Shown: positions 26,500 through 51,045, counted from the stretch's first letter. The stretch: 64,000 bases of DNA from Methanospirillum hungatei JF-1 (GCF_000013445.1 NC_007796.1:2640936-2704935); one strand, 5' to 3'. The notes: a model not told the origin generated them from the sequence alone. Numbers and translations are program-made.

Positions 26500-26692
26500 G
26501 AAAGACAGGCTCATAGGTTTCATTCCGGTCGAAGGATTCAAAACATCTGCTCTCTTCTCTGCTCGGTTTAACGACAGGTAAACCGAATCCAGATAGAACG
26601 CTTAAGGACCCATTTCTTTTACGTAATTATTCACATGAAAGATAATAATCCGAACATTAAACTGCTGTCGGAAATGGATTATCAATTCCCTT
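26500..26692 (+). pseudogene. Decayed Rpn-family gene fragment
   Basis: Aligns by eye with the Rpn genes at 28130-28320 and 31540-31730: CTGCTCTCTTCTCTGCT is shared, and spaced matches continue through ACCCATTTCTTTTACG (versus ACCCGTTCCTCTTACG) to AAATGGATTATCAATTC (versus GAATGGAGATCAGTTC). Frameshifted and stop-ridden. An older copy of the same family. Confidence 0.65.
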
Positions 26693-26752
26693 TTCCAGGT
26701 GCACAGGAATCGTCCCTATAACCCGGCCCCGAATAAGGGTTATTTCACATTT

Positions 26753-27751
26753 CTACAAACGAATACTCTTATTAACTGGCTCTATTGTTCTGATGGCAGA
26801 GTTGGTTTCTCCACATGCATTCCGGATGGTTAAATTGACTTCATAGGCAGCAGAAAGCCCAAGTGGACCTAAATTTTGCGCTGTTCCAGTTCCATTCGTC
26901 CGGGATCCAAAGTCCCATACCATCTCGACCGGTACAGAGGGAGTTCCATTATCAGTCAGGTAGAATCGGACCTGATACGGATTAATGCTGATGACTTCAT
27001 ATTCAAAGGAGGCATCGGGTTTTGTGCATTGTATTCTGGATGAATCAGAGGGGTTACGTTCATTTCCAGGATCTGGCATTGCAGCAGGTATCTGATGAGA
27101 AGTCTGGACAGCCGGTGCGGGCATGTACGGAGTTATGAGAGGTGATGGTTGCATTTTTTGAAGGTTTGCAGGTGCAGTGGCTGGTCCAGGTCCGGGAAAG
27201 GTGACGAGCAGTATCATGAGGCACACCATACTTGCACATACAATAAAGATTGCGAAGAGATGTGTGGTTTTCACGCCCATCCGGGTGAGATACTTCAGGA
27301 GTGATGTATCAAGATAGAAAAGGATGAAGATGAGTCCACATACCCCGATTATATGAAGGGCGGGGTAGATAACTGCCATATCCAGAAGGAGGAGTGAAGC
27401 ATACATGATGAGGAGTATGCAACCGATACACAGGCAGGCAGCATTCCTTATAAAACGGAGAATATCATTTCGATTAATTCTGCCAGTTACCGGGACAGGG
27501 GACTCTGTTTTCCGGTCATCGTCATTCAGATAGGTAACCATCAGTTCATGGAGGTTTTTCAGATAGATCTGATTGTCAGGGTCAAACCGGATTGCATTCA
27601 GAAAATTTGCATGTGCCTCGTGATAGTCATGCAGACGGACCTGACACATTCCCAGACCATTCCAGGCTCTTGCGTCTGTTTTGTCATAATCGATGAGTTG
27701 TCGAAATTTCATGGTGGCCCGTTGGTAATCCCCCTGATGAAAGAGTTTCAT
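26753..27751 (-). CDS. TPR / four-TM / PKD-like protein
   Basis: 332 residues. Residues 1-75 are two TPR units (MKLFHQGDYQRATMKFRQL, ARAWNGLGMCQVRLHDYHEA). About 105-190 contain four hydrophobic segments. A Pro-rich linker leads to a C-terminal PKD-like beta domain (MVWDFGSRTNGTGTAQNLG). The TPR would face the cytoplasm and the PKD-like domain the outside. Its 5' end is duplicated as the truncated gene at 30897-31160. Divergent from the Rpn gene at 27925. Function unknown. Confidence 0.7.
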   Translation of the reverse strand: MKLFHQGDYQRATMKFRQLIDYDKTDARAWNGLGMCQVRLHDYHEAHANFLNAIRFDPDNQIYLKNLHELMVTYLNDDDRKTESPVPVTGRINRNDILRFIRNAACLCIGCILLIMYASLLLLDMAVIYPALHIIGVCGLIFILFYLDTSLLKYLTRMGVKTTHLFAIFIVCASMVCLMILLVTFPGPGPATAPANLQKMQPSPLITPYMPAPAVQTSHQIPAAMPDPGNERNPSDSSRIQCTKPDASFEYEVISINPYQVRFYLTDNGTPSVPVEMVWDFGSRTNGTGTAQNLGPLGLSAAYEVNLTIRNACGETNSAIRTIEPVNKSIRL

Positions 27752-29150
27752 CGCAGACTCAAACAGGTCAGTAATTATGTCTCACTCCTTTCTTGTTCTG
27801 AAGGGTTCCCCTATCAGAATGATTCATGGGGATATGTGAAGGATAAGTATTTAGCTGTTTTGTCGGTCAATTCGGGGGATAGTTATGTATATATTGCAGG
27901 TTATTTTTCAAAAAACAGGGCCGGTTGGAGATAATCCCGGTGGATATGATGCAGGGAATGGTATCCTGTACAGAGAGGATGAGTGAGGTGACCTGTAACA
28001 GAAGGTGGTACTCATGGATGCCTTACCGGAATAATTCGCAAGATATATCCGCAATTCTATCACACAAATCAGGACTCTTGGCAGAGATTATCACCCGTGA
28101 TGACCGGTTCCTTATGTCCCCTCAAAACGACTTTGCATTTAAGGTGTTATTCGGATCGGAAGAGTCAAAAGATCTGCTCTCTTCTCTGCTAAGTTCAATT
28201 ACAGGTGTATCATGCACGGACATCACGCTGAAGAACCCGTTCCTCTTACGGAATTATCCGCTAGAGAAGGAGGGTTTTCTGGATATGAAACTGACCACGG
28301 GGAATGGAGATCAGTTCTTTATTGAGATGCAGGCAGAACGGCAACAGGCGACTCATAATCGAATGCTCTTTTACTGGGCACGGCTGCATGGATCACAACC
28401 GATTAAGGGGAAAGATTATGGATCCCTGAGCCGGACGACTAGTATCTGTATCCTTGGTCATCCTTGGTTTCAGGGCGATGAGCCGATATTTTGTTTTCAT
28501 GCATTGGAAAGGGAGAGTTTTGAACAGGTTTGTGATGACTTTTCCCTCATGTTTATGCAGGTGGGATACTCTAATAGTGATAAAGGAGTTTCGTATAAAA
28601 ACGATCTCTGGGCATGGAGAATATCACGGGGATCAAACCCTGAAACTATATTCTGCACGTCCGGTATAATTGCCGGGCTTTCATTGAATTTTTGTGCAGA
28701 TCATTATATGAAAAGTCTGAATAAACGCTCTTTGCCACTGAGTGTCATTCCATGACGTGTATGCCATGTCCTGGAAATCGTATCACATTCCAGATACTAT
28801 GATTATCTAAACCTCTTTCAGGGCATATTGAAGGTTTTCAGGCATTCAATAGAGGTTTATATACAAGGGGATTGTAGTGGGGCATACAGCTCCAGGAATG
28901 GGGATCAGACCATCGGAATACCGGGGGGATAATGAAATCCGGTCAGAAAAATTTATTTTCATGTTTCAAAATCATGGCTGGATACTGTTTTTCAGTAATC
29001 CAAACCAGAGGGAGGGAAACTGGGTGGATTTTTTAATTCTCTATTCTGATGATGAATATGTTTTATTAGATTATCACCCTGGAAAACGAGAATACGTAAA
29101 AAAATTGATTTTAAAGGATCTTTTCATCTCTCCTGAAGCGGATGTTTATA
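27541..29150. repeat. Segmental duplication, copy 1
   Basis: Near-identical to 30951-32930 over its first ~1.1 kb (5' part of the TPR gene, the divergent promoter region, most of the Rpn gene), then weaker. Relative to copy 2 it lacks ~350 bases near 28625, removing the Rpn C-terminus. The offset of 3409-3410 bases in the conserved part shows direct orientation. Confidence 0.9.
27925..28755 (+). pseudogene. Rpn-family nuclease/transposase gene, C-terminus lost
   Basis: The 276-residue frame contains the PD-(D/E)XK transposase-like domain from [14 protein letters not shown] (likely true start Met64, at 28114). Core residues Asp120 and Glu134-x-Gln136 (FLDMK ... FIEMQAE) are intact. After [12 protein letters not shown] the sequence jumps, by deletion, into DNA that in copy 2 is downstream of the gene, so the last ~40 residues are fortuitous and the charged oligomerisation tail is missing. 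Probably nonfunctional, or an unregulated nuclease fragment. Confidence 0.75.
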
Positions 29151-29714
29151 TCAGAATTCTATAATGGAAAAGAACCCTGGAAGGTGCCAGGGGATATCAG
29201 GGATATTATTGCCGCACCAGAACAGGTTAAGAGATTTGTTCCTTCTGTTCCGTATCTGTTGATCGATGAACTCAGGCTGTCAGTGCATCATCTGCTCGAG
29301 GTCAGAAACCTCTCTGCATGTTTATTCAGACTTGAACAATCCGCAGGGCCTGTGGAACTCATAGAGCTTGGATTAAGACTGAACCAGTGGATGGAGACAG
29401 ATGAAGGGATGGCTGATATGAGGAAGGATTTCTCCTTGTTCTTTGATAATACATTAATGAGAGATCAGGATATACCGATACCAAACCCGTTTCTTGGAGG
29501 GACCATGTTAGCTGAAAAAGTAGACAAGTGTATTGCAGCTTATAAAGCGGAAGGAAAGGAAGAAGGAAAAGCAGAAGGGAGAGCAGAGGGGAAAGCTGAA
29601 GGCAGAAGAGAAGGTATGGCTACTATACTCCGTCGGATGAAGGAGGCAGGGATGTCAATTGTTGATATTGCACAGATTACCGGGATGCCGGAAGAAGTCA
29701 GACACCTGATATAG
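29142..29714 (+). CDS. C-terminal part of a YhgA/Rpn-like (Transposase_31) protein
   Basis: 190 residues. Begins within the domain (FYNGKEPWKVPGDIRDII, then VPYLLIDEL), so the N-terminal nuclease part is missing. The tail has Glu-Gly-Lys-Ala repeats (EGKEEGKAEGRAEGKAEG) and ends in a small helical domain (SIVDIAQITGMPEEVRHLI). An internal ATG at 29505 is preceded by GGAGGGACC and would make a 69-residue short form. The frame starts where the segmental duplication ends, suggesting truncation by rearrangement. Confidence 0.65.
   Translation: MFISEFYNGKEPWKVPGDIRDIIAAPEQVKRFVPSVPYLLIDELRLSVHHLLEVRNLSACLFRLEQSAGPVELIELGLRLNQWMETDEGMADMRKDFSLFFDNTLMRDQDIPIPNPFLGGTMLAEKVDKCIAAYKAEGKEEGKAEGRAEGKAEGRREGMATILRRMKEAGMSIVDIAQITGMPEEVRHLI
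29505..29714 (+). other. Candidate intragenic short ORF of the YhgA-like gene
   Basis: GGAGG at 29496-29500 lies 4 bases before the in-frame ATG at 29505. The product would be the 69-residue charged C-terminal tail. Comparable sites occur in the other Rpn-type genes of the window. Confidence 0.4.
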
Positions 29715-30109
29715 TCCAGGCTCAACAGCTAACAACTTTTATTCTCACCTGATATTCTATTATCCCGGTGCAGTTATTACCCCGCTAATATCAACCCTTC
29801 TCTTCTGTCGGTCTGGTTACATGAAGCGATGGGGGGTATCGAAAAAACTTTTGATAAGCCAGGAGACACCGATGCACTATACTTCATTTGTTTCCTGCAT
29901 AACCTCTTCAAAGTATGATCTTGGATCCTGAATGTACATATTACAGATATCTAACCGAAGAGTATAGCTTAATTCATGGAGAACATGATTCCTCACTCTC
30001 TCTGTTCTATCCATTAAAAATTATTTAATTCTCATCCCGATGGATTATTGAATCAGAAAGACCTACCCATTTAGTATCTGATATGAATACTTCAATGGAG
30101 AGAGGTTCA
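29715..30109. other. Intergenic region before the MntA/HepT pair
   Basis: 395 bases. Apart from a 45-codon minus-strand frame at 29877-30014 nothing gene-like is seen; the stretch is AT-rich and contains the promoter of the toxin-antitoxin pair (candidate TATA within 30015-30030). Confidence 0.4.
29877..30014 (-). CDS. Possible small protein or gene fragment
   Basis: 45 codons starting MDRTERVRNHVLHELSYTL and ending EEVMQETNEV. Amino-acid composition is protein-like and the frame is free of rare combinations, but there is no clear Shine-Dalgarno. It may be a broken piece of a larger gene. Not recognised. Confidence 0.25.
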   Translation of the reverse strand: MDRTERVRNHVLHELSYTLRLDICNMYIQDPRSYFEEVMQETNEV

Positions 30110-30412
30110 ATGCTCCCTATGAAACGACAGGAAATTATTATAAAACTAAAAATGGAAATGCCAGTTATTCGGGAGCGATATGGTATTATTAAGATGGGGC
30201 TTTTTGGCTCATTTGCTCGGGATGATGCCGGACCAATGAGTGACATAGACCTTATTGTATTATTTGAAGAGGGCAAAGAACAATTTCGTCCCTTTATGCA
30301 ATGTATTTTTTATTTAGAACAGATTTTTGGGAGAAGAGTAGAGTTGATTGCTGAACACTCTCTTGACAAAAGAATTCGGCAGGATGTACTCCGTGAGGTT
30401 ATCTGGGTATGA
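30110..30412 (+). CDS. mntA: MntA-type nucleotidyltransferase antitoxin
   Basis: Start at 30110 (MLPMKRQEI) because GAGAGAGG lies just upstream; a further ATG is at 30083. 100 residues. The complete minimal nucleotidyltransferase signature GSX10DXD is present (GSFARDDAGPMSDID). In HEPN/MNT pairs this enzyme neutralises HepT by AMP addition to its Tyr. ATGA overlap with the next gene. Confidence 0.9.
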   Translation: MLPMKRQEIIIKLKMEMPVIRERYGIIKMGLFGSFARDDAGPMSDIDLIVLFEEGKEQFRPFMQCIFYLEQIFGRRVELIAEHSLDKRIRQDVLREVIWV

Positions 30413-30750
30413 AAAGGGATTCTGTGTTCATTGAGCATATCCTTCATGAAATTGGATATATTGAGGAGAAATGTCAGCAAAAAACTCTTGATGATTTGTA
30501 TTCAGATGTGGATCTTCAACATATTGTGTCGCGTGCTTTGGAGATTATCGGTGAAGCTTCACGAAATGTTTCCATGGCAATAAAAGACAGATATCCAGAT
30601 ATTCCATGGAAAGAGATGATTGGCGTCAGGGACAGAATAATTCACAGTTATTTTTCCATAAACTGGGTGATAGTATGGGATATTGTAACCAATGAACTCT
30701 TTACACTCAAGAACCAATTAGAAGATGTCCTTTCTGAAATTGAGGAGTGA
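30409..30750 (+). CDS. hepT: HepT-type HEPN RNase toxin
   Basis: 113 residues, all-helical DUF86 family. The RX4HXY motif is complete: Arg74, His79, Tyr81 in RDRIIHSYF, giving the RNase site and the tyrosine modified by MntA. Translated from an ATG overlapping the mntA stop, with GAGGTTATC as ribosome site. Both motifs are intact, so the pair should be functional. Confidence 0.92.
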   Translation: MKRDSVFIEHILHEIGYIEEKCQQKTLDDLYSDVDLQHIVSRALEIIGEASRNVSMAIKDRYPDIPWKEMIGVRDRIIHSYFSINWVIVWDIVTNELFTLKNQLEDVLSEIEE

Positions 30751-31333: not shown

Positions 31334-32257
31334 ATGGAGATAATCCCGGTGGATATGATGCAGGGAATGGTATCCAGTACAGAGAGGATGAGTGAGGGGA
31401 CCAGTAACAGAAGGTGGTACTCATGGATGCCTTACCGGAATAATTCGCAAGATATATCCGCAATTCTATCATACAAATCAGGACTCATGGCAGAGATTAT
31501 CGCCCGTGATGACCGGTTCCTCATGTCCCCTCAAAACGACTTTGCATTCAAGGTGTTATTCGGATCGGAAGAGTCAAAAGATCTGCTCTCTTCTCTGCTA
31601 AGTTCAATTACAGGTGTATCATGCACGGACATCACGCTGAAGAACCCGTTCCTCTTACGGAATTATCCGCTAGAGAAGGAGGGTATTCTGGATATTAAAC
31701 TGACCACGGGGAATGGAGATCAGTTCTTTATTGAGATGCAGGCAGAACGGCAACGGGCGATTCATAAGCGAATGCTCTTTTACTGGGCACGGCTGCATGG
31801 ATCACAACCGATAAAAGGGAACAATTCTGGATCCCTGAGCCGGACGACTAGTATCTGTATCCTTGGTCATCCTTGGTTTCAGGGCGATGAGCCGGTATTT
31901 TGTTTTCATGCATTGGAAAGGGAGTGTTTTGAACAGGTTTGTGATGACTTTTCCCTCATGTTTATGCAGGTGGGAAACTCTAATAGTGATAAAGGAGTTT
32001 CGTATAAAAACGATCTCTGGGCATGGAGAATATTTCTGGGAGCAAATACTGAAGAGGAGATGATCATGGCAGCACAGGCAAGTGAAGCGGTGAATGAGGC
32101 ATATAACAGGTTGATAGTAAAGAGCCAGGAGCCGGAACTGAGAGAGTATTATGAAGCACGAGAGATGTGGATAATAGATCAGGCAATTCGGGAGAATGAA
32201 GCGAGAAAGGAAGGGAGAGAGGAAGGAAAAGAGGGAAGAAAGGAAACACTCAATTGA
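31334..32257 (+). CDS. Rpn-family PD-(D/E)XK nuclease/transposase-like protein (frameshifted tail)
   Basis: 307 residues as read; true start probably Met52 (31487) or Met64 (31523, [14 protein letters not shown]). Active-site residues Asp120 and Glu134-x-Gln136 are kept. After [10 protein letters not shown] the helical C-terminal region begins; within the purine-rich tail ([12 protein letters not shown]) the frame ends at 32257, while the +1 frame continues to 32378 with a sensible C-terminus (MNESGISPDSIVSISGLSPEE), so a slippage-type frameshift has occurred there. Internal ATG at 32066 has GAGGAG 6 bases upstream. Family knowledge: Rpn proteins are DNA nucleases that promote recombination. 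Confidence 0.8.
32066..32257 (+). other. Candidate intragenic short ORF of Rpn copy 2
   Basis: ATG at 32066 with GAGGAG at 32054-32059. Short product of 63 residues, or ~103 if the frameshift is reversed. Not a separate gene; a proposed alternative translation start. Confidence 0.4.
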
Positions 32258-32935
32258 GATTGTTCTCCATATGAATGAATCAGGTATTTCGCCCGATTCT
32301 ATTGTATCAATATCCGGTCTGTCACCAGAAGAAGTCAGGAAGATAATTTCTGATTGTCGCTCATCTCCTCGGTCATAATTTCTTCTGACACCCGATGGGT
32401 AAATAATCCTGATTTATGTTCTGCAGTTCCGGTATAGGTACCGGGGTTTCATTGAATTTTTGGGTAGATCATTGTATGAAAAGTCTGAATGACCACTCTT
32501 TGCCACGGAGGATCATGTCATGAAGTACAGGTCGTGTCCTGGAAATACTATCACATTCCAGATATAATGTTTATTTAAACCTCTTTCTGGGCATAATGAA
32601 GGTTTTCAGGGATATCCCATATAGTTTCATATTCAACCGGATTGTGGTTGCGTATACAGTTCCTGGAATGGAGATCAGACCATCAGAACTCTGGGGTGAT
32701 AATGAAAACCGGTCAGACTAATTCAATTTCATGTTTCAAAAATCAGGGTCGAATTCAGTTTGTCAGTACTGGAGATACGTGGGAGGTAACCGGGGTGGGG
32801 TTCCCTGATACTCTCCCCTGAAGATGTATATGTTTGATTGGATTATCACCCAAGAAAGCGATAAAACCGTATAAATTAATTTAATCGGCTCTTTTCATCT
32901 CTCCGAAAGTGGGATTTTTTTATCGGTAATTTTTT

Positions 32936-33480: not shown

Positions 33481-36400
33481 TTAAAACGTTCCATACCAAT
33501 CCAAATACCGATCACATTTACTTCCGGGGTTGAATTGAATTCTCCATCTCCATGGTCCATTGAAATCCGGATTCGGATCATCATAAAGATAGGAACGGAT
33601 TGTTTGCCACGGAGGAGAATTATTTCCGATATATGCATCATATCTTTGGGCTGCATTTGCAATGACATTCGGAATAATGTATGAGCCATCTGATGCAGTA
33701 TACGTATACCAGAGGAATTCATTTGGTGTTGCATTGCGGTAAAATTCTATTCTTATGTTCTCAATTGGCAATCCAGTTGTTTCATTTCTCACAACACCCT
33801 TCAGGAAGTAACATTTAGGTCCATAATATGCAACAATGGTGTGATCTTCCTGAACATTTGTAAACACATATGGATTAATTGCACTTGAAAATCTCCCATC
33901 AATCAATAATTCAGCAAATAAATAGGTTTCTTTTCCGATTATAAAGGATGGCTCCATTGAATAACTCTGTGAATTGCCACACTGAACCGAAGTAACCCCT
34001 TCCGGATCGATCATGCCGGTAATTGGTATTGGTGTGTAACTACCCACATCAAGATATACTGCCGAAGCTGTGATATTATACGGCCCTCTTGGCACAAACG
34101 ATGCACTGATATTATGTGGTTCAGTCACATTCGTAAACGTATAACTTCTGATTGGACCCATCGAAGTCCCGTCAACCCGAACGTCAGAAATATTCCAACA
34201 CGTGAGATTGGTAATGCTAAAAGATTGATCATATCCACAATTGACCATGACTATCCCATTTGGTGTAATATTCCCACCAAAACCGGCAGTCGCATTTATT
34301 GGAAATGTCTTCAGAGCAAACACTGCATGAATTGATTGATCTGAAGTTACATTCGTAAATGTATAGGTAAAGGGACTTACCTGAGGACCAAGGTGCTGTG
34401 TCCCGTTGATGATTACATCGGTGATATTAAAGCAGAATGCCGCTGTAATAGTATAACTCTGATCTGAACCACAATCAACCACAGTTATTCCCAGTGGATC
34501 AATCGTTCCTCCCGCATCTGCAGATGAGGCGATCTGGAACTGTTTTAGATCAAAGTATGCATCAATGGTCTGATCGTACTGCACATTGATGAAGGTGTAA
34601 CTCTCAACCGGTCCAAGATGCAGTGCATTCGGTTGATTCTCATCAATTACCACATCTCTGATCGTATGACAGAGATCCGGCGTAATATTGAACTGCTGGC
34701 TCCATTCACAGGGGACGGTGACATTCCCTGACGGATTGATAAACCCACCCTCATGAGCTGTGGCAACAATAGTTAGCGGCAGGCATCCAATCGGCAGATA
34801 CATGGAATTCGTAGATTCACTTCCACATGAGTTCTTAATGGTAAGGATTACCTGGTAGTCATCACGGATGTAATAGGTATGGACCGGGTGCTGCTCTTTT
34901 GAGGAGGATCCATCGCCAAAGTACCAGTTCCACTCTACTATGTCATATCCGGTGGAGAGATCGGTAAACTGAACAGTCAGGGGATCCTCATTAACAATGG
35001 TATAATTGAATAATGCTTCAACCGGCGGGCAATAGACATGTATCTGTTCACTATGGGTTTCATTCCCTCCACACGGGCTGGTTGCATGGAGTGTTGCTGA
35101 ATAATTCCCACCTGTTTTGTAGGTATAGACTGGGTTTCTGAATGAAGAGACGCCTCCATCACCAAAGGTCCATCCCCAGGATTGCGGCGTTCCAATTGTC
35201 CTGTCAGTAAAGTATACAGTCAGGGGAGCGGTGCCATTTACAGGTTCCATTCTATAGGTGAAATTGGCATATACCGGGCAACAAACGAGTTTGTCAAATG
35301 TGTCCCTAGCTCCGCATTCGTTTGTTACTGTGAGTGAAACCAGATACTCTCCACATCCAGCTGCGTAGGTATGGTCAGGGGGATTCTGTCCAGTGTAATA
35401 AGTTCCATCACCAAAACTCCAGTTCCAATGGGTGATCGTTTCCGGTTTTTGGGATGAATCGCGAATTCTGACAGTAAAGGGTTCACCGGAGATTATCTCG
35501 GTTGAGAAGTTCGCAACTGGCGGGGTGCAGAAGCAGGGGGTGGATATGCTCTCCCGATAGCTGTTCTTCGCTCCGCATGTGGTAGTAACAGAGAGATTTA
35601 CCTGCCATGTTCCGTTTCTTATGTATGTATGCTGTGGGTTTTGAAGGATAGATGAATTTCCATCTCCAAACTCCCATAACCAGTCAGAGATATCATCTCC
35701 GGATGTCTTTGTGGTGTCAGAGAAGTCCACCGTCAATCCATCAGGATTACAGGCATAGGTAAATCCGGGAACCGGCATCTCACAACAGGGGACGGTGACG
35801 AATCTGGTCCATCTGGCTGATGAGTTACATGTTGTAAAGACCGTGAGATTTACCGGATATGTGCCGGGATTATCATATTTATGGTTCGGGTTTTGTAATC
35901 CGGAGGTGTTATCCGGCCTTAGATCTCCAAACTCCCAATACCAGGCATTAATTCCACCGCCAATCGCACGGGAGAGGTCGGTGAAGCTGACGTTTGTCGG
36001 CCCGGTACAGGTGTAGTCAAAGTCAGGTTTTGGTGGTGGACAGCCACAGATCGCGTCCTGAATGACATCGTCTGATGAACCACAATCGGTTGTGACCTTC
36101 AGGCGGACGGTGAACTGACCACAGGCTGCATACCGGTGAGTCGGGGTCTGCTCTGTTGAATTCGTGCCATCTCCGAACTCCCATAATACTGCAGTGATTG
36201 GCCGTTCAGAAACGGATTCATTGATGAACCTGAATTCCTGTGGATCGGTTGTTGGTTCAATACGGAATCTCGCTTCTGGGAGTGGACAACCACAGATAGC
36301 ATCCTGAATGACATCGTCTATGGAGCCACAGTCGGTCGTAACCTTCAGGCGGACCGTGAAATGGCTACAGGTTGAATACCGGTGAGTCGGGTTTTCCTCG

Positions 36401-41900: not shown

Positions 41901-44900
41901 ACCAAATGACCAGTTCCATGATGTGATTGAATTGCTGTTCGGAACCGACTGATCGGTAAATCTCATGGTGAAGGGCTTTGAGGAGACCATCTCCTTCGTG
42001 AAGTTAGCAATTGGCGGGGAACAGAGACAGGGGACGGTAATATTATGAATCCATGAGTTTTGAGCACCACATGTCGTCGTTATGGTGAGGTTAACCAGGT
42101 AGGTTCCTGGCTGGTTGTACCGATAGACGGGGTTCTTGTCTGACGATATGCCCGCATTATCACCAAAGTCCCATCTCCAACGGGTTATTGCATCTCCGAA
42201 TACCTTCGAGGTATCATTGAACTGGATGGTATTCCCATCCTCAAGACAGGTGTAGGTAAAGTCAGGAACTGGCATCTGGCAGCAGGGGACGGTTACCTCT
42301 CGTGTCCACCGGGCTGATGAATTGCAGGTGGTGAATACCGTTAAATTGACCGGATAGGTCCCCGGATTGTCATACTCATGCGTTGGGTTTTGTAGTCCGG
42401 ATATATTGTCTTGCCTCAAATCTCCAAACTCCCAGTACCAAGCCCTAATTCCATTGCCCATTCCTCTGGATAGGTCGGTAAAGTTGACAGTTCGTTCTCC
42501 AATGCATTTGTAATCAAAGTCAGGAACCGGGGGCGGACATCCACAGACGATATCCTGTATGGTGTCATTACTACTTCCACAATCAGCGGTCACCTTCAGT
42601 CGGACTGTATATTGGCTGCAACTTGGGTAGGTGTGGGTCGGGTTCTGCTCTGTTGAGGTTGTACCATCTCCAAACTCCCACAACCACGATAGATTCACAT
42701 GAGGAACATGGGTGGAACGATCTATGAACACAAACTCCTGAGGATTGGCCGAAGTAGTATACTCAAAGGCTGCTTTCGGGGACGGACAGCCGCATATGAC
42801 ATTCTGAATCGTCTCATTACTACTCCCGCAATCAGCCGTCACCTTCAGTCGAACTGTATATTGGCTGCAACTTGGGTATATGTGAGTGGGGTTCTGCTCC
42901 GTTGAGGTTGTACCATCTCCAAACTCCCACAGCCACGATAGATTCACAGAAGGATCATGGGTGGAACGATCTATGAACACAAATTCCTGAGGATTTGCCG
43001 AAGTAGTATACTCAAAGGCTGCTTTCGGGGACGGACAGCCGCATATGACATTCTGAATCGTCTCATTACTACTCCCGCAATCAGCCGTCACCTTCAGTCG
43101 AACTGTATATTGGCTGCAACTTGGGAAGGTGTGGGTGGGGTTCTGCTCTGTTGAGTTTGTGCCATCTCCAAACTCCCACAACCATGATATATTCACAAAC
43201 GGTTCATGGGTAGAACGATCGGTGAACACAAACTGCTGGGGATTGGTTGTATTATTATACTCAAAGGCTGCTTTCGGGGACGGACAGCCAGTTGTGATAT
43301 CCTGGAAGGTGTGATCCCATGATCCACAATTCGTTGTTACTCGTAACCTGACCGTGTAGGTTCCTGGACTAGTATACCGATGAGTAACGCTGGAGCCTGT
43401 CGAAGTAACACCATCACCAAAGTCCCATTCCCAGTCTGTGATTGTGACTGAAGGATCATGGGTTGATGTACTGGTGAACCTGAACTCACGGGGGTTGGAC
43501 ATAGATTCGACGGTGAATTGTGCAATCGGTTTTGGGCAATTACAAGAGACTTCCTTAATGACGTCATCCCAGCAGCCGATATCATCCCATACCCTGAGTT
43601 TTACCGGGAATGAGCCACATTTGTCATACTCAATCCAGAATGTTCCTGGTGGAGAGGTATTTATCGCAGATGTCCCATCACCAAAGTCCCATTCCCAACG
43701 GGTCAGCGTGTTATTGTTTGAATAAGACGAGTCAATGAAGTTGAACCGTTTCGGGTTATTTGGAGCGGCAGTTGCAGAAAATTCAGCCCGTATATCGTCG
43801 GGTTCACAATTACCTCCACCGCACGAGATGGTCCGGGTAGTTTCAGCCCAGCATCCCATAGCATCATGGACGATGAGTTTGATGACATAACTTCCACATG
43901 ATGAATAGGTATGTGTAAATATGAAAGGATCTGGTTTTGTCGTGGTGTTGAAATTTATGGGTGTCGTGCCATCTCCAAAGTCATATGTCCATTGAATAAT
44001 GTCCGATGGTGTAGAGGTATCATTGATGATCGTGGTCGTATTATTTGACTTTATTTCTGTGGCAGTAAATACCGGAGTTGGGTTTTCTTCTTCTGTGCAG
44101 ATACAGGGGAGATTAACTGTTTTTGTACAGGTGTAGTAGATACCACCATGGAGATCGATGACATCCATTTTTACACTGTAATCGCGACACTCGGTGTAAG
44201 AATGAGAGATCCGATTAGAATCTGGCCATTTAGTTATTCCTGCAAATCCGTCTTTTGAATAGGTTTCTGAGTTACTGCCATCACCAAAGTCAAACTTTAC
44301 TTTCCAGTCCTTGTTATCCAGACCTTTACATACATCTGGATGATTCCATGTAAATTCAACATTCCATGGGTTTCGTGTGGATGGATCATAGTTATCTATG
44401 AAACACCCGCACACAATCGATTCTGTTGTGACCTTCTGTGTCACCGAACAGGTGAAATCCTGGTCACATCGATTTATCTTTTTCGTTAATGTTACCGAAT
44501 GAATTGATTTATTATCCAGGTAGGTGTGCTCTACTTTTGTATTATTTATTATCGTTTTATTTTGCCCATCTCCATATTCCCAAGAAAAAAACCCCTTATC
44601 TGGGCCATCAGCGGTAAATTGAACAGTTTTCCCATCAACAAGATAACTAAACCCGGCAACACAGGGGGCATGTGAACAGGGAGGGACAGTTACATACTGA
44701 ATAGAAGAATCACTGCAGATGGGGGTTGAATTATACACCGTATGCTGAATGAAATAACCCTGACTGTTTGTATCGTAGGGAATAGGGAGGGTATAATCAA
44801 AACTCCATTCTTTAGTTGAAATAGATACTGGTAGAAAATTTTTACCTGATATTGTCCATTTGTGAGTTAGATTATCTGCATGAGCGGATGCAATACAGGT

Positions 44901-45479
44901 AAGATTATTTCGATAATCGCCGACAGTATCTGCAGTAAACGCTGCAGATGGGGTATCATTACAAAAGCCAGGAATGGGAACAATGGTTGGAACTGCCGTA
45001 ACGTTTGGGATTTCAATCGGTCTGCTGTGTCCAGTTCCGAACTCTTTTATCAGGTAATTCCCTGTAGATACATTATGGTGTATCTGATATCCATCATTAA
45101 TTTCAGTAATATTTACAACCGATGAATAATTCCATTCCAGGTCAGGATGATCTTTCCACCTGACTTCATAATCCTTTTCTCCTGACGTGACATTCCACTT
45201 AACAAGATAGACATTATTCAGATCTATTGGGTTTCCTTTCTCATCTGTAAATGTGGTTGCGTAAAACCTCAGTGAATCGCCACCACCATGGTAAAAAGAT
45301 GCATTTGCACCTGATGTATCTTCATCTTTGGGTATCATCTGCACGGATACTTTCGGGATATCCTCCGGTGGCGGGCCTGATGTCAACATCACTGACACGA
45401 TGGATATACCTATGATAACAAGACTGATGAGGAGGATCGCTGCAACGACTTCCGAGACAGCTCTATCTTTAGAATTCAT
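38949..45479 (-). CDS. Giant Cys-rich PKD surface protein with pilin-like leader and SdrD-like domain
   Basis: Start set at MNSKDRAVSEVVAAILLIS (45479), 4 bases after the previous stop; a longer frame begins at 45506. About 2176 residues. The leader is a pilin type (DRAVSEVVAAILLISLVIIG). About 14 PKD domains follow, then an SdrD-B-like domain (ISGYLWNDKNLNGVRDPEE), a ~350-residue beta-rich region with WRYGSSYPGSRGNYP, one more PKD, and a final unfamiliar domain (NRNGYLHPGYASWLVRG). PKD 9-13 match PKD 9-13 of the downstream gene in order, so the two genes are paralogues. Confidence 0.87.
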   Translation of the reverse strand: MNSKDRAVSEVVAAILLISLVIIGISIVSVMLTSGPPPEDIPKVSVQMIPKDEDTSGANASFYHGGGDSLRFYATTFTDEKGNPIDLNNVYLVKWNVTSGEKDYEVRWKDHPDLEWNYSSVVNITEINDGYQIHHNVSTGNYLIKEFGTGHSRPIEIPNVTAVPTIVPIPGFCNDTPSAAFTADTVGDYRNNLTCIASAHADNLTHKWTISGKNFLPVSISTKEWSFDYTLPIPYDTNSQGYFIQHTVYNSTPICSDSSIQYVTVPPCSHAPCVAGFSYLVDGKTVQFTADGPDKGFFSWEYGDGQNKTIINNTKVEHTYLDNKSIHSVTLTKKINRCDQDFTCSVTQKVTTESIVCGCFIDNYDPSTRNPWNVEFTWNHPDVCKGLDNKDWKVKFDFGDGSNSETYSKDGFAGITKWPDSNRISHSYTECRDYSVKMDVIDLHGGIYYTCTKTVNLPCICTEEENPTPVFTATEIKSNNTTTIINDTSTPSDIIQWTYDFGDGTTPINFNTTTKPDPFIFTHTYSSCGSYVIKLIVHDAMGCWAETTRTISCGGGNCEPDDIRAEFSATAAPNNPKRFNFIDSSYSNNNTLTRWEWDFGDGTSAINTSPPGTFWIEYDKCGSFPVKLRVWDDIGCWDDVIKEVSCNCPKPIAQFTVESMSNPREFRFTSTSTHDPSVTITDWEWDFGDGVTSTGSSVTHRYTSPGTYTVRLRVTTNCGSWDHTFQDITTGCPSPKAAFEYNNTTNPQQFVFTDRSTHEPFVNISWLWEFGDGTNSTEQNPTHTFPSCSQYTVRLKVTADCGSSNETIQNVICGCPSPKAAFEYTTSANPQEFVFIDRSTHDPSVNLSWLWEFGDGTTSTEQNPTHIYPSCSQYTVRLKVTADCGSSNETIQNVICGCPSPKAAFEYTTSANPQEFVFIDRSTHVPHVNLSWLWEFGDGTTSTEQNPTHTYPSCSQYTVRLKVTADCGSSNDTIQDIVCGCPPPVPDFDYKCIGERTVNFTDLSRGMGNGIRAWYWEFGDLRQDNISGLQNPTHEYDNPGTYPVNLTVFTTCNSSARWTREVTVPCCQMPVPDFTYTCLEDGNTIQFNDTSKVFGDAITRWRWDFGDNAGISSDKNPVYRYNQPGTYLVNLTITTTCGAQNSWIHNITVPCLCSPPIANFTKEMVSSKPFTMRFTDQSVPNSNSITSWNWSFGDGTTYSGQNPPEKTYNSCGEYLVNLRVTNDCGQYDDVDQLVCCPVFANFTYQLDPPDGDAPVTAYFTDLTEGEPNAWHWDFGDGKTSYLQNPVHIYNEGGNYTVTLHATSPCGGNETHSKILTFGCPEVVADFSYTIISEDPFNVSFRDLSYGGEIVDWTWFFGDGTTSKEQHPYHLYAGRENYNVGLIVKNSCGNTAQIWRRIAFDCPNLTADFNLTPSSGMSPLEVKFTDNSTPMDKIMSWLWFFGDGTSYYTTSPPSRNPPNHTYSKIGTYYVTLQVKNECGNPYSTVKTVNVTNPASISGYLWNDKNLNGVRDPEEQGLSNWQVYLQERVAGNWVDRQSNSTDINGDYTFNLPDVTYGTFRIREVLPANWKVTYSYGSGAETYSSALVISTQRQYNEVHFGNAQWRVSEIQIPSRWRYGSSYPGSRGNYPKNWPFDYTTSFDSTPMKSWPQDGTGNGAFIPYIRYENWGDSSFILHPGFYNLYYKTGSAWYWLTTWHWRANGSVFNTGFNCSVPDNTIYRYSDIDLFYLRNYSTFFEFYYPRENELIPYNTSSYVEVHYVGPNENQANGNTNCKLHLPDGMIVNLPYIGYLGYNTGYWNNTKWEGQYITLVARNLLTNGATVTTYRNVSVDFEPVTPVIISPVNNSVVKGLTTFTATVGGKNRNTSDVWLLIDDQNAGQMVFDALNNRFNLQVNVESYAGKTISVVTRAYPLPGKGTFRDSSPVWLRVGSEEPILANFTADPWEGPAPLEVSFTDTSTGGPASWTWNFNDGYTSTLQNPIHIFQNPGNYSVSLQVTNVTGQSSTISKYINTTGVLNTVSLLTNRNGYLHPGYASWLVRGSGSTITVNGTEYTLNNGDRVRLDIGVAQTRANIRIVGEINAFNVTSVILSINGNPVDTGVCSAIKINDFENYHSNLKITAYRQTNAWINLVWNGVPISVQNYQNLEISELMPSTDKIMELSLEPGNIYFDGRASSYRLYS
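42530..43275 (-). repeat. Tandem 249-bp PKD-coding repeats (3 units)
   Basis: TTCGGGGACGGACAGCC occurs at 42775, 43024 and 43273, exactly 249 bases apart (83 codons, one PKD each starting KAAFEY). Two of the three units differ by only a few bases. Confidence 0.9.
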
Positions 45480-45483
45480 TGTT

Positions 45484-47001
45484 TTACCCATATACCCGAG
45501 AGTCAATTTTCATTTCGACCAATGCATGGTTGAGAGTAAGGTGAAGATTGTAATTATTTTTAGGTGTCACATTAACATTAACGGTTTTTCCATGCTGTCC
45601 TGATTCTACAGTTAATCCATCACTTTTTAGTAAACTATCGATAGATTTTTTATAGTATCTCGCTTCATCTTCATCAGAAGCGGTTATCTGTATCAAAAAC
45701 CCTTTTGCATTTTCAATAATCCCTTCTTTCAACTTATACCAGTTATCCCCACTGTTGATGATATTGTGTCTTACTCCTTTTAGAGTCGAGGTAATCTGAA
45801 CCTCATCATGACCGCCGACCAATGCATCTCCAAAGAGAGAGATGAGGTTGATATGAACATTACAGATATTTCCTGCAGGAGATACCTGGATCCAGTTGGA
45901 AGATATTTTTGGTTGGATGATTCCATTCTGCTTAAGTTGCACCTCTCCACATTGGTAAATATATTCCTGATTGATCCAATAGGGGTTTTGTGATGAATAA
46001 TTAAATGTCCCAATAGGTGTTGTGTCCATAGTGATATTTGCCGTAATATAATCAAGATCACCAGTGCTCGAACTATTACCATAATAGGTGATATACTCGA
46101 ATAGATCACTTGGATTTTTTGGAATTAGGGGAGGGGAACCATCACTTCGGGTATATACATAACTTAAATTTGATCTGATCAACTGATCGTTCGATAGTCC
46201 GTATGCCTCTTCCATGAGATTAACTCGGATAGTTTCATTCCAGGTATATGGTGACACAAGCCCCCGATAGATGACCTCATCTTCAATGGTTTTCATTCCA
46301 TTCTTTATCACAGAGAGCGTTACTTCTTTTACCGGATAATTGAGAATTTCAAGGTGTGAGACCTCCCTGGTTTCAGGATGTTCTGTCCAGTTTAATACAT
46401 GATACAGATCCTCCTGGCGGAGTGTGGCGTTCTTTACTTCAAGGACTGCCACCCAGTCAACAAGTTCCCATGGATTAATCAATCTACTTGAGGTGATATT
46501 TGTTGGATAAATTGTAAGAGTATGGGGATCAAAGGGAGGCATTTGATTTGGATAAATATTTGTTGAGTAATTTACAAAAATCGCAGAATAATCCTCTTTA
46601 ATATCACCTGCATCTGAACCGGTAATATTTATGAAGGTGCCATTGATTATTGTCAAACTCAAATTAGGCATTTGAGTTATTGCAACTTTTCCGCTGGATG
46701 CCACCGGTTGCATCACTGGGAAAATGCTGAATGCCCCTCCTGATGTTTGTCCTCCAGTTCCAAGAGAAAGTTGCTGATTGAATGATACACCCTCTTGGTT
46801 GTTATACCATAGCGAATCGATATTCATCTTGAAATCGGTAAAAAATTTCTCGACGTTTTGCATATGCTGGATCTCTGCATCCCTCCCCTGTGAAGGAACC
46901 ACATAGGTCATATAGAGAGATCCAAGAATAACAATGATAGCGATAATTAAGATAAACCCGATGACCTCTGATAACCCGTCATCCGTAACCCGACCAGACA
47001 T
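45484..47001 (-). CDS. Pilin-leader surface protein, first gene of the PKD operon
   Basis: 505 residues. Leader DDGLSEVIGFILIIAIIVILG. The rest is beta-rich, Asn/Thr-rich, with potential N-glycosylation sites (NGTFINITGS, NATLRQ) and no PKD. It resembles large pilin-fold proteins that carry an archaeal Pilin_N segment. Its ATG follows AGGAG lying inside a 14-bp palindrome (47003-47016). Promoter and 5' codons are repeated in two further copies (48446, 49880). Probably the filament or anchor subunit to which the PKD proteins relate; inference. Confidence 0.8.
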   Translation of the reverse strand: MSGRVTDDGLSEVIGFILIIAIIVILGSLYMTYVVPSQGRDAEIQHMQNVEKFFTDFKMNIDSLWYNNQEGVSFNQQLSLGTGGQTSGGAFSIFPVMQPVASSGKVAITQMPNLSLTIINGTFINITGSDAGDIKEDYSAIFVNYSTNIYPNQMPPFDPHTLTIYPTNITSSRLINPWELVDWVAVLEVKNATLRQEDLYHVLNWTEHPETREVSHLEILNYPVKEVTLSVIKNGMKTIEDEVIYRGLVSPYTWNETIRVNLMEEAYGLSNDQLIRSNLSYVYTRSDGSPPLIPKNPSDLFEYITYYGNSSSTGDLDYITANITMDTTPIGTFNYSSQNPYWINQEYIYQCGEVQLKQNGIIQPKISSNWIQVSPAGNICNVHINLISLFGDALVGGHDEVQITSTLKGVRHNIINSGDNWYKLKEGIIENAKGFLIQITASDEDEARYYKKSIDSLLKSDGLTVESGQHGKTVNVNVTPKNNYNLHLTLNHALVEMKIDSRVYG

Positions 47002-47475
47002 GACTCCTGCAGGAGTTATCTACCGGTCACCAGATATACATTTCATATGGTTAACCCACACCGGATATAGGCTGCCCACAAAAAACCGGTGATTATCACG
47101 TATCACGACCTGCAAATCACCGAACCTCTCCGAAAAGAGGGAAGAAGCATACACAAAATCGAAACTTCGCGATAGATGGGGCTTTTAGGACTATTCAGGC
47201 AGGTAATTTCGGCTCATGAACCGGACCTGGGAACGATGGAATTGGTGTTTATTGAGGGCAGGAGAGGTCCAATACGATAGATTCCGGGGAGTGAACGAAT
47301 CCAGAGCGGAGGGAATGGGTGGGAGATAGTAATTGAAAAACAGGGGGGCGGGTTTTCATAGGGAACCGGAGTTTATCGTTGGGAATGGAAAATAGGAGAG
47401 GAGGGTTATTGGGTCGGGAGGGAGAGGGATTTTTTGAGTTTATCGATGATTGATTGATCAAGACCGGTTGCTTTC
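46960..47475. repeat. Rpn-array repeat, copy A
   Basis: About 515 bases: the first ~40 bases of the pilin-leader gene, its upstream region, and the 3' end of an Rpn gene. Shares TTCATATGGTTAACCCA, AACTTCGCGATAGATGGGG and CTCATGAACCGGACCTG with copies B and C. Confidence 0.9.
47003..47016. promoter_or_regulatory. 14-bp palindrome containing the ribosome site of the PKD operon
   Basis: ACTCCTGCAGGAGT is perfectly symmetric and ends 1 base before the ATG. In RNA it can fold with AGGAG paired to CTCCT, hiding the Shine-Dalgarno. It could be an operator or a translational switch. Absent from the two promoter copies near 48.5 and 49.9 kb. Confidence 0.5.
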
Positions 47476-47729
47476 TTGATAAACTCATCGTCCATACCAA
47501 GGGAGAGGAGGTTTTTCACGAACCCTTCTCTTTCTTCTTCCCTTCCTTCTTCCCTTCCTTTCTTCATCCCCTCTTCCAGTCCCTCCTCTTTCGCTTCATA
47601 CATACGTGTAGCCTGATCATGAAGAAACATCTCTCTTGCTTCATAGAGCCGTCGGGTCTCTTCATCAAGACTCATAATCTGAAGATTGTTATATGCTTTT
47701 TGTATTGCGGGTTTGCCTTCAGCTGCCAT
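47406..47729 (-). other. Candidate intragenic short ORF of Rpn A
   Basis: 107 residues from ATG 47729 (MAAEGKPAIQK). GGAGGAGGAG lies 6 bases before it (47736-47745), one of the strongest ribosome sites in the window. In bacterial Rpn genes a comparable internal start makes an inhibitor of the nuclease. Proposed, not shown. Confidence 0.5.
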
Positions 47730-48326
47730 AATTATCTCCTCCTCCGTATATGCATTTAAAAATGTAAGCCACGATAGGAGATCTGTACCTTTATATGGTA
47801 CCCTGCACCTATGAACCTTTGGGAGCTCCAGAAAATGAATTTCAAAGACATCACTCATGAGGATATCATGGGTTTTATCATATGCCTGAAAGCAGGTATG
47901 AAGATCTTCTACAGGCATCAGCATATAATCCAGGATATTTATCACGATGGTGCGTTTCAGCTCATGATAACTATGACCTCTATTGAGTTGGTCAAGATAC
48001 ATTTTTGCCCAGTAGAAGAGACTCCGTTTCTCCATTGATTTTAGATCGAGCACCTGCATCTCAATGTCAACATAAACTCCGGAATCTGATAATACCTTGA
48101 TGTCCAGAATGCACTCCTTTTTCGTATCAGGTATGAGCAGATGTGGATCGGTGCACACAACACTCTGAAAATGATCCGGAAGGATAGCATTCAGAAGATC
48201 AAGGAGGATGTCAGAGTTATTCGGATCTCCAAAGAGTAACCGGAAAGCAAAATCATTCCGGGGGGACATGAGGAATTCGCCGGTATATGTCGTTATTGAT
48301 CTCATGATGGAATAATTCGCCTTCAT
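47406..48326 (-). CDS. Rpn-family PD-(D/E)XK nuclease/transposase-like protein
   Basis: 306 residues, apparently complete. Domain begins GEFLMSPRNDFAFRLLFGD; active-site Asp75 (ILDIK) and Glu89-x-Gln91 (DIEMQV) are intact. Helical C-terminal part ends with a charged tail (EEGLEEGMKKGREEGREEE) and a conserved cap (MDDEFIKKATGLDQSIIDK). In-frame ATG at 47729 has GGAGGAGGAG 6 bases upstream. Upstream of the PKD operon on the same strand, 404 bases away. Probably a recombination-promoting or antiphage nuclease. Confidence 0.88.
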   Translation of the reverse strand: MKANYSIMRSITTYTGEFLMSPRNDFAFRLLFGDPNNSDILLDLLNAILPDHFQSVVCTDPHLLIPDTKKECILDIKVLSDSGVYVDIEMQVLDLKSMEKRSLFYWAKMYLDQLNRGHSYHELKRTIVINILDYMLMPVEDLHTCFQAYDKTHDILMSDVFEIHFLELPKVHRCRVPYKGTDLLSWLTFLNAYTEEEIIMAAEGKPAIQKAYNNLQIMSLDEETRRLYEAREMFLHDQATRMYEAKEEGLEEGMKKGREEGREEEREGFVKNLLSLGMDDEFIKKATGLDQSIIDKLKKSLSLPTQ

Positions 48327-48890
48327 GAATTGGGCTTCATTTTATACATGAGTTGCTCTTTCTGATGGTGAATAAAAGAAAACCGCATTACGGTAGATTT
48401 TCTTAAAAGGAAGGGAGACGAGATTAGAGTGAGAATAAATATCGGGATGACCTCTGATAACCCGTCATCGAAAGCCCGACCCGATATCTATTGCGGATAA
48501 TTTTGGGCACCTGATATACATTTCATATGGTTAACCCAACCCGGATATAGGCTGCCCACAAAAAACCAGTGATTATCACATATCTCGACCTTCAATTCGT
48601 TGAACCTCTCCAAAAAGAGGAAAGAAGCATACACAAAAATCGAAACTTCGCGATAGATGGGGCTTTCAGAGTTATTCAGAGAGGAGAGTTCGGCTCATGA
48701 ACCGGACCTGGACCCAATGGGGTTGGTGTTGATAGAGGGCAGGAGATGTCCAAAACGATTGATTCCGGGGGGTGAACGAATCCCAAACGGAGGGAATGGG
48801 TGGGAGATAGGAATTGAAAAACAGGGGGTCGGGTATTCATAGGGAACCGGAGTTTATCGCTGATGTGGAAATACGAAAAGAGAGGAGGGG
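48327..48890. other. Intergenic region with repeat copy B
   Basis: 564 bases between Rpn A and Rpn B. The first ~120 bases hold the Rpn A promoter; the rest is copy B of the ~500-bp repeat, including a start-less piece of the pilin-leader gene. Confidence 0.6.
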
Positions 48891-48960
48891 TTATTGGGTC
48901 GGCAGGGAGAGGGATTTTTTGAGTTTATCGATGATTGATTGATCAAGACCGGTTGCTTTG
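48446..48960. repeat. Rpn-array repeat, copy B
   Basis: About 515 bases similar to copy A, in direct orientation 1486 bases further. Carries GACCTCTGATAACCCGTC (the pilin 5' codons) but not the pilin ATG, which is changed. Confidence 0.9.
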
Positions 48961-49124
48961 ATTATCAGTTCATCCTCTATACCCAGGGAGAGCATGTTTT
49001 TGGCGACGGTTTCTCTCTCCTGTTTTTTTCCTTTTTCCATACCTTTTTTTATACCTTTTTCTAAGCCTTTCTCTAAGCCTTTTTCCATTCCCTTCTCTTC
49101 AGCATACTTTACAACTTTAAACAT
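48891..49124 (-). other. Candidate intragenic short ORF of Rpn B
   Basis: 77 residues from ATG 49124 (MFKVVKYAEEKGMEKG). GGAGG lies 8 bases upstream (49133-49137). The codons forming this ribosome site (TGG GAG GAA) differ from those in Rpn A, so the feature is not merely shared sequence. Confidence 0.45.
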
Positions 49125-49766
49125 ACGTAATTCCTCCCATAATTCATCAAGTATTTTTTGGTCAACAATCTTATCCGCTAATATTAAGGTTAATTCCCGG
49201 ACTTTATTTCGAAGATCCTTTTCTGGAAGTTCTTTTTCAAGGTCAATCGTTCTCCTGAGCAGTTCAATTTTTGTGAGTTTGCTCTTCATAAGAGGTAAAA
49301 AGATAAGTTCCAGTTCGTTTACCGGTTCACCTTTTTCCAGAGCAGCCCGCATCTGGGAGAGCAGGGCATCACCATCACGATCAGACAGAACGATTTGTAG
49401 TACGTTATACTGTAGACTGCCAATATCTAATACTTTTGTTCCGCTCGAACTATCAGCAGGAGTAAGGACTACCGTATGGACCGGGGCATCATAATATCGG
49501 AAAAGACGGAGATCATAATGAGCAAACCTGATGAGATCTCTTTTTGAAAGATTCATTTCCTCTTCAAGGTGAAGGATAGATCCATCCTCAAGACGAAAGT
49601 TCAGATCCATCATGTCATCAGTTGTCTCAACTTCAGGGATCTCCGTCACCAGGAATGAGATTATTGGTGGTAGATCAATACCCAGAAATGCCAGTGATCT
49701 ATTGTCAAAAATCGAGAAGGCTTCTTTGAAAACCAGATCGTAATTTTTTTTGCTTATCTTTCTCAT
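48891..49766 (-). CDS. Rpn-family protein with a different nuclease domain but shared tail
   Basis: 291 residues. Residues 1-215 are unlike the neighbours (MRKISKKNYDLVFKEAFSI, with Asp54 and Glu68-x-Glu70 as candidate PD-(D/E)XK residues). From ~245 the tail (GMEKGKKQERETVAKNMLS, then the cap DELIIKATGLDQSIIDK) matches Rpn A and C. So a different catalytic module sits on the same C-terminal tail. Internal ATG at 49124 has GGGAGGAA upstream. Confidence 0.8.
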   Translation of the reverse strand: MRKISKKNYDLVFKEAFSIFDNRSLAFLGIDLPPIISFLVTEIPEVETTDDMMDLNFRLEDGSILHLEEEMNLSKRDLIRFAHYDLRLFRYYDAPVHTVVLTPADSSSGTKVLDIGSLQYNVLQIVLSDRDGDALLSQMRAALEKGEPVNELELIFLPLMKSKLTKIELLRRTIDLEKELPEKDLRNKVRELTLILADKIVDQKILDELWEELRMFKVVKYAEEKGMEKGLEKGLEKGIKKGMEKGKKQERETVAKNMLSLGIEDELIIKATGLDQSIIDKLKKSLSLPTQ

Positions 49767-50265
49767 GTGGGGGTAAAAACTCTGGTGCGAATAAGATTAG
49801 AATTATTCGGTTTTATGTTGGAGAATGCACTACCGGGGGAACATCTCCGATGCAGGAAGAAAGAGAATGAAATGAAGAGATGGCCTCTGATAACCCGTCA
49901 TCGAAAACCCGACCAGATATCTCTTGTGGATAATTTTGGGCACCAGATATACATTTCATATGGTTAACCCAACCCGGATATAGGCTGCCCACAAAAAACC
50001 TGTGATTATCACATATCACGACCTCCAAAACCCCGAACCCCTCTAAAAAGAGGAAAGAAGCATACACAAAATCGAAACTTCGCGATAGATGGGGCTTTTA
50101 GGACTATTCAGGCAGGTAATTTCGGCTCATGAACCGGACCTGTACTCTATGGAGTTGGTGCAGATACCGGGCAGCAGATGTTGAATACGATTGATTTGGG
50201 GGGGTGAACGAATCCAGAGCGGAGGGGGGGTTATCAGGGATCCTGAAAAACAGGGAGAGGAGAGG
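49767..50265. other. Intergenic region with repeat copy C
   Basis: 499 bases between Rpn B and Rpn C holding the Rpn B promoter and most of repeat copy C. Confidence 0.6.
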
Positions 50266-50335
50266 TTATTGGGTCGGGAGGGAGAGGGATTTTTTAAGTT
50301 TATCGATGATTGACTGGTCCAGTCCGGTTGTTTCC
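49880..50335. repeat. Rpn-array repeat, copy C
   Basis: About 456 bases similar to copies A and B; internal deletion near 50215. Includes the same conserved block at ~50060-50150. Confidence 0.9.
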
Positions 50336-50577
50336 ATTACGAACTCATCATCCATGCCCTTGGAAAGGAGGTTTTTTGCTACTTCTTTTCTTTCTTCCTC
50401 CCTTCCCTTCTTCATGCCCTCTTCCAGTCCCTCCTCTTTCGCTTCATACATACGTGTAGCCTGATCATGAAGAAACATCTCTCTTGCTTCATAGAGCCGT
50501 CGGGTCTCTTCATCAAGGCTCATAATCTGAAGATTATTATACGCTTTTTGTATTGCGGGTTTGCCTTCAGTCACCAT
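50266..50577 (-). other. Candidate intragenic short ORF of Rpn C
   Basis: 103 residues from ATG 50577 (MVTEGKPAIQK) with GGAGGAGGAG 6 bases upstream (50584-50593). It may still be made although the nuclease part is damaged. Confidence 0.45.
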
Positions 50578-51045
50578 AATTATCTCCTCCTCCGTATATG
50601 CATTTAAAAATGTAAGCCACGATAGGAGATCTGTACCTTCATATGGTACCCTGCACCTATGAACCTTTGGGAGCTCAAGGAAATGAATTTCAAAGACGTC
50701 ACTCATGAGGATATCATGGGTTTTGTCATATGCCTGAAAGCAGGTATGAAGATCTTCAACAGGCATCAGCATATAATCCAGGATATTTATCACGATGGTG
50801 CGTTTTTCCATTGATTTTAGATCGAGCACCTGCATCTCAATATCAACATGAACTTTGGAATCTGCTAATGCCTTGATGTCCAGGATGCACTCCTTTTTTG
50901 TATCAGGTAAGAGCAGATGTGGATCGGTGCACACACCACTCTGAAAATGATCCGGAAGGATAGCATTCAGAAGATCAAGGAGGATGTCAGAGTTATTCGG
51001 ATCTCCAAAGAGTAACCGGAAAGTAAAATCATATCGGGGTGACAT
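50266..51045 (-). CDS. Rpn-family protein with internal deletion (copy C)
   Basis: 259 residues, closely matching Rpn A but lacking 24 residues directly after EMQVLDLKSMEKR (in A: SLFYWAKMYLDQLNRGHSY and the next five), an in-frame 72-base deletion between CGTTT repeats. The upstream start codon of Rpn A is out of frame here through a 4-base loss, so translation would begin at MSPRYDFTF. Asp and Glu of the active site remain but helices of the fold are gone, so nuclease activity is doubtful. The tail and the internal ATG (50577) are intact. Confidence 0.75.
   Translation of the reverse strand: MSPRYDFTFRLLFGDPNNSDILLDLLNAILPDHFQSGVCTDPHLLLPDTKKECILDIKALADSKVHVDIEMQVLDLKSMEKRTIVINILDYMLMPVEDLHTCFQAYDKTHDILMSDVFEIHFLELPKVHRCRVPYEGTDLLSWLTFLNAYTEEEIIMVTEGKPAIQKAYNNLQIMSLDEETRRLYEAREMFLHDQATRMYEAKEEGLEEGMKKGREEERKEVAKNLLSKGMDDEFVMETTGLDQSIIDKLKKSLSLPTQ

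Follow-up and report, generated by a model that had tools for sequence, protein, structure and literature searches.

Predicted internal starts at the nuclease/tail boundary of Rpn-type genes in the archaeon Methanospirillum hungatei

Results

Rpn-type genes in the window

The window analysed here is a stretch of 64,000 nucleotides (2640936-2704935) of the single-contig M. hungatei genome (3,544,738 bp). It carries two groups of Rpn-type genes (Table 1), here named by their first coordinate and separated by two very large genes at 33481-45506 with many PKD-like repeats, recognised by eye, which are likely surface proteins. A sequence-only reading had described five of the Rpn genes as keeping a charged tail, with a Shine-Dalgarno (SD) sequence and an in-frame ATG just upstream of it. 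On sequence comparison, these five genes represent three types of site and not five independent ones. Type A comprises 31334, 47406 and 50266, with one homologous site common to all three. Type B is 48891, a PD-(D/E)XK-like gene without a family name, which gave no match to Pfam and a weak TIGR01784 match over its C-terminal half. Type C is 29142, similar to E. coli RpnA and with PF04754 relatives. Profile matches thus assign an Rpn-type nuclease domain to the three type A genes (PF12784/TIGR01784) and to full-length relatives of 29142 (PF04754, E=1.1e-27 for one of them), which are present in the same genome.

Table 1. Coordinates, strand and character of the Rpn-type genes, predicted short forms and internal SD sites. 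dG, duplex energy with the anti-SD in kcal/mol; background, share of background internal ATGs matching the site.
Coordinates	Strand	Feature	Remarks
27925..28755	+	Copy of the 31334 gene (97% identity) that has lost the short-form part	Toxin-only remnant
29142..29714	+	RpnA-like gene (PF04754 type)	N-terminal nuclease half absent
29496..29501	+	Internal SD GGAGGG of 29142	
29505..29714	+	Predicted short form, 69 aa	ATG ~17 aa ahead of 4-aa repeats; dG -9.8; background 1.3%
31334..32257	+	PF12784 gene	Frameshift in tail near 32240
32051..32059	+	Internal SD GAAGAGGAG of 31334	
32066..32257	+	Predicted short form, 63 aa, truncated by frameshift	dG -7.5; background 3.5%; synonymous p=0.61; the weakest site
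47406..48326	-	PF12784/TIGR01784 Rpn nuclease, 306 aa, RpnL-like	PF12784 E=8.8e-56; TIGR01784 169 bits
47406..47729	-	Predicted short form, 107 aa, ATG 47729	dG -11.8; background 0.05%; synonymous p=0.016; aligned site kept in relatives
47736..47745	-	Internal SD GGAGGAGGAG of 47406	
48891..49766	-	Type B Rpn-like gene	
48891..49124	-	Predicted short form, 77 aa	ATG ~10 aa ahead of 4-aa repeats; dG -9.9; background 1.3%
49132..49138	-	Internal SD GGGAGGA of 48891	From Trp-Glu-Glu codons
50266..51045	-	Duplicate of 47406 (PF12784)	~25 aa of nuclease core gone in frame; tail intact
50266..50577	-	Predicted short form, 103 aa	Shorter than the 47406 short form by a single 4-aa repeat; dG -11.8; background 0.05%
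50584..50593	-	Internal SD GGAGGAGGAG of 50266	

The array is partly decayed, and only 47406 and 48891 look intact in the window; 29142, 31334 and 50266 are not intact. Compared with its relatives, whose open frames span 295-344 aa, 29142 begins only near residue 130, and the rest of the HTH-like end of 31334 sits in another frame, to about 32378. As for the five tails that had been taken as preserved, that of 50266 is intact and that of 31334 is frameshifted. The 27925 copy lacks 361 bp, equivalent to 32054-32414, a stretch that takes in internal start, tail and part of the 3' flank; its breakpoint (28644) lies inside the internal SD, 13 nt 5' of the expected position of the internal ATG. What is left at 27925-28755 is the nuclease portion, with the short form gone. 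47406, 48891 and 50266 form three tandem Rpn units (47406-51045), with flanks repeated among them. The type B gene 48891 has a type A-like 3' tail, which suggests exchange of tails between different nucleases.

Since 29142, 31334, 50266 and 27925 are all damaged, the window genes could be decaying remnants whose internal starts survive only as vestiges of an ancestral fusion or a past function. We regard this as unlikely, given that 47406 and 48891 look intact and that the same sites are kept both in a second PF12784 array of this genome, near 2968717-2972474, and in intact copies in related genomes. The PF12784 family was found in 11 of 232 genomes of the class, and sampling 393 genomes across the phylum yielded no further case beyond the class; the viral contigs searched contained no relatives of these genes.

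Strength of the internal SD sites

Sequence and duplex energies confirm that each of the five ATGs is in frame with an SD ahead of it, and the predicted short forms do fall within the 63-107 residues first proposed. The anti-SD GGATCACCTCCT is present in the genome, and SD sequences of its genes peak at -13 to -8 (28% vs 3-5% farther upstream). Duplex energies with the anti-SD AUCACCUCCU were compared with a background of 2,087 in-frame internal ATGs from 286 other genes in 400 kb of the same genome, among which 2.7% reach -8, 1.3% reach -10 and 0.05% reach -11.8 kcal/mol. Four of the sites rank in the top ~1% of internal ATGs and one in the top 3.5%. The SD+ATG site is by far the strongest within 47406, 48891 and 50266; in 29142 and 31334, some other internal ATG scores equally well or better. 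On the same energy measure, the proven internal start of E. coli rpnA reaches only -7.1. The internal SD beats every plausible SD at the full-length start in 15 of 18 archaeal genes.

The suggestion that the sites did not arise by simple copying holds only in part: there are three kinds of site, but 31334, 47406 and 50266 have one homologous site in common and 47406 and 50266 are duplicates.

Codon choice and conservation of the site

Synonymous codons were shuffled 500 times inside each gene, and non-redundant genes were combined per family (Fisher). The combined p value was 1e-4 for type A, in a set that is mostly archaeal, 0.17 for type B and 0.91 for type C; the representatives share less than ~80-85% protein identity, so that synonymous sites should be near saturation, and they are not fully independent. 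We also counted any strong SD with a start within -2 to +4 codons of the aligned site. Archaeal-centred type A has such a pair in 13 of 18 non-redundant genes, with 3.0 expected from synonymous shuffling, and the archaeal-only set in 7 of 12 (2.0 expected). Bacterial type A genes have it in 31 of 56, against 5.4 expected from shuffling and 0.3 from the frequency in other parts of these genes, two of these 56 rows (L210, L220) being genes close to those of M. hungatei on a contig binned as Cloacimonadota that may be misbinned. Counts were 8 of 12 for type B (3.2 expected) and 6 of 14 for type C (5.5 expected). For those bacterial genes that have a start codon there, synonymous codon choice gave a combined p of 1e-7. 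Type B evidence is intermediate at the sequence level, with 0.17 from shuffling (Fisher) and 13/20000 for an SD+start near the aligned site. Shuffling and counts together place type A clearly above its synonymously shuffled versions, type B at the borderline and type C at the shuffled frequency, the outcome that the sequence-only reading had named as speaking against internal initiation.

The PF12784 SD is spelled by differing residues (EEE, KEEL, REEL, KEVL, KEGF, KEAF, KGVI, WEDV). Bacterial sites include AAGGAGGTGCTTGAAATG (KEVLE-M), AAGGAGGGATTTGAGATG (KEGFE-M), AAAGGGGTGATCGAGATG (KGVIE-M) and TGGGAGGATGTTTGCATG (WEDVC-M), as well as AAAGGAGGTGATGGAGGTG and AAAGGAGGGGATGAAATTG, with non-ATG starts. 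Two genes with a strong SD carry GTG or TTG in place of the Met codon, and where the start is shifted by 1-4 codons from its aligned place the SD shifts along with it. Both SD and start are missing from the aligned site in some PF12784 clades. Among bacterial genes, a strong SD occurs in 18 of 22 with a start at the aligned codon and in 0 of 22 without a start within two codons; however, the SD+start trait falls into clusters of the tree (7 changes over 93 rows), and this contrast is therefore not independent evidence. An independent-pairs sign test for SD/start coupling on the tree had too few independent pairs and no power. Consequently, the case rests on codon choice and on retention of the site through amino-acid change. 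Glu-Glu coding alone was tried as the cause of the PF12784 sites and rejected, on the SD codon bias and the SD being kept through residue change.

Coincidence in coding would mean that an SD is spelled by chance by Glu-Glu, Trp-Glu or Gly-Gly codons ahead of a conserved Met, and that no initiation takes place there. Single-gene synonymous tests, mostly non-significant (p 0.01-0.6), agree with it, and it wholly accounts for type C, since the Gly-Gly-Thr residues of 29142 alone yield its SD. For PF12784, however, codon choice leans to the SD in archaea and bacteria alike, the SD stays while residues vary, GTG or TTG stands in for the Met codon in some genes, and tail-only genes start at this point. 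As an explanation for the genes as a whole, we find coincidence quite unlikely.

Standalone tails and repeats

Standalone tail copies, found in the window's genome, in G120, G121, G129, G142 and G202 and on contig L169, have their start at the site or slightly upstream of it; one of them has a different SD. In G120, a full gene is followed by three tandem tail-only copies, each with a TATA-like sequence upstream. In these copies AAGGAGGAGTTAAAGATG is the sole SD-preceded start, and they vary in the count of exact ATTGAGAAAGGA repeats, a 12-nt unit (4 aa). Two fused tail copies in the window's genome open with MTHNITSKANPVI, the parent having M(A/V)SEANPVI. The number of four-residue tail repeats varies among close copies, as between 47406 and 50266, among L037 paralogues and among the standalone copies of G120. 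Breakpoints on the 5' side of type A copies lie mostly at -35 to +2 residues from the site, many of them being tandem copies, and breakpoints of 3'-side loss showed no clear clustering except for the 27925 case.

The distance from the ATG to the repeats at 29505 and 49124 is within the published RpnS range of 8-20 residues. At 32066, 47729 and 50577 it is ~45 residues or more, outside that range. Either the published rule leaves out the PF12784 branch or a second, shorter form exists.

Tail-only genes of L040 (7250-8760, minus strand) differ by exact 12-nt repeats, the parent having few and one copy up to six. L169 is a 4.9-kb contig binned as Candidatus Cloacimonadota, and possibly misbinned, whose Rpn genes and tail copies are very like those of M. 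hungatei.

Structure models and remote similarity

In the AlphaFold model of 47406 (pLDDT 80.5), the nuclease core extends to about residue 190 and Met200 lies at the nuclease/tail boundary. Met200 is followed by helices 206-220, 222-275, 280-287 and 291-300, and the modelled tail is a long helix with two short HTH-like ones. The model of the short form, of low confidence (pTM 0.31), likewise has one long and two short helices (7-76, 81-88 and 92-102). Foldseek searches with the full-length and short-form models gave nothing significant (all E>0.001); the best matches at that level included PD-(D/E)XK enzymes for the full-length model and were largely HTH proteins for the short form. The RpnA-S structure 7TH0 is a weak sequence match (E 0.41-0.44) and the top PDB match for the 29142 short form (E=0.44); it was not among the Foldseek matches listed. 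The type C profile matches RpnA over its whole length, with E=1.7e-22 against RpnA alone, and the alignment of their two internal Mets is ambiguous.

Discussion

RpnS is made from an internal start in E. coli and C. difficile genes, and in E. coli it inhibits RpnL with a specificity set by repeat number (PMC10327210). Rpn has been recorded in two archaeal phyla, with none assayed (PMC10327210, Zhong et al. 2023), and our literature search found no paper on archaeal Rpn short forms. Internal in-frame translation has a precedent in archaea, Cas11b being described as its first known product there (PMC11899642), and most euryarchaea studied use SD-led mRNAs (PMC7531240). In the light of these reports, the genes described here are probably archaeal members of the Rpn gene-within-gene RpnL/RpnS toxin-antitoxin system, with the short form produced by internal initiation.

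An internal start giving an RpnS-like short form is well supported at the sequence level for PF12784-type genes, by codon choice, by an SD+start kept through amino-acid change and by free-standing tails that start there. For the types of 29142 and 48891, position and standalone copies agree with such a start, and codon choice adds nothing and little, respectively. The sites, the codon-level conservation in PF12784, the standalone tails and the variation in repeat number are read directly from the sequences; from them we infer translation of the short form in the cell, binding, inhibition and an anti-virus role. By analogy with E. coli, the archaeal short form would act as an antitoxin.

According to this mechanism, the full frame would encode a PD-(D/E)XK nuclease that ends in a helical tail (RpnL), and the SD and start at the nuclease/tail boundary would allow ribosomes to make the tail alone as well (RpnS). 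As in E. coli, the free tail may bind its counterpart in the full-length protein by way of the long helix that carries the repeats, leaving the nuclease inactive. Specificity would depend on how many four-residue repeats the tails have, and the nuclease would be released on infection.

The closest known counterparts are E. coli RpnA-E (PF04754), which share the PD-(D/E)XK nuclease, the internal SD+ATG before a helical C-terminal tail, tail repeats of four residues in variable number, and standalone-tail and tail-less copies nearby. Type C 29142 is a sequence homologue of RpnA, and the archaeal standalone tails resemble the separate rpnS genes of E. coli (PMC10327210). Unlike the E. coli genes, those described here have an archaeal host, and their predicted short forms of PF12784 type begin ~45 residues ahead of the repeats and not 8-20. 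Clostridial and other bacterial PF12784/TIGR01784 Rpn genes have an internal SD+start at the same aligned position; they differ in that their SD is often AAGGAGGTG-like, from Lys-Glu-Val codons, and in that certain clades are without the site. The Haloferax cas8b gene is similar in producing a C-terminal protein, Cas11b, by internal in-frame translation of an archaeal defence gene (PMC11899642), although Cas11b is a CRISPR Cascade subunit from a family unrelated to Rpn.

That precedent, together with the stable 2:2 complex formed by E. coli RpnL and RpnS (PMC10327210), raises the question of whether the short form is made but serves as a structural partner or activity-promoting subunit, as Cas11 does for Cas10d/Cas8b, and not as an antitoxin. 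However, the bacterial RpnS proteins tested for inhibition do inhibit their RpnL (PMC10327210), and we consider such a role improbable. It is very improbable that the internal SD only slows ribosomes at the domain boundary to aid nuclease folding: it is indeed located at the nuclease/tail boundary of the model, but a pause would not require a start codon at the distance used for initiation, the SD shifts along with the start, and standalone tail genes begin at this very point.

If the short forms of the RpnL/RpnS reading are made, they would be, within the literature searched, the first archaeal gene-within-gene toxin-antitoxin pair and only the second archaeal protein known from internal in-frame initiation. 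The analysis pins the predicted start of the short form to a definite codon across the whole PF12784 Rpn branch, bacteria included, and predicts a conserved small protein missed by annotations. More tentatively, the PF12784 internal start might be ancient, common to bacteria and archaea, and might also act as a joint for gain, loss and exchange of tails. Toxin-only copies, tail-only copies with varied repeats and tail-swapped copies would then constitute a recombining nuclease-antidote repertoire based on internal initiation, a possibility towards which we lean less than halfway.

Between the Rpn copies of the window there is also a nucleotidyltransferase gene (PF01909, 30083-30412) and a HepT-like gene (PF01934, 30409-30750), an MNT-HEPN toxin-antitoxin pair.
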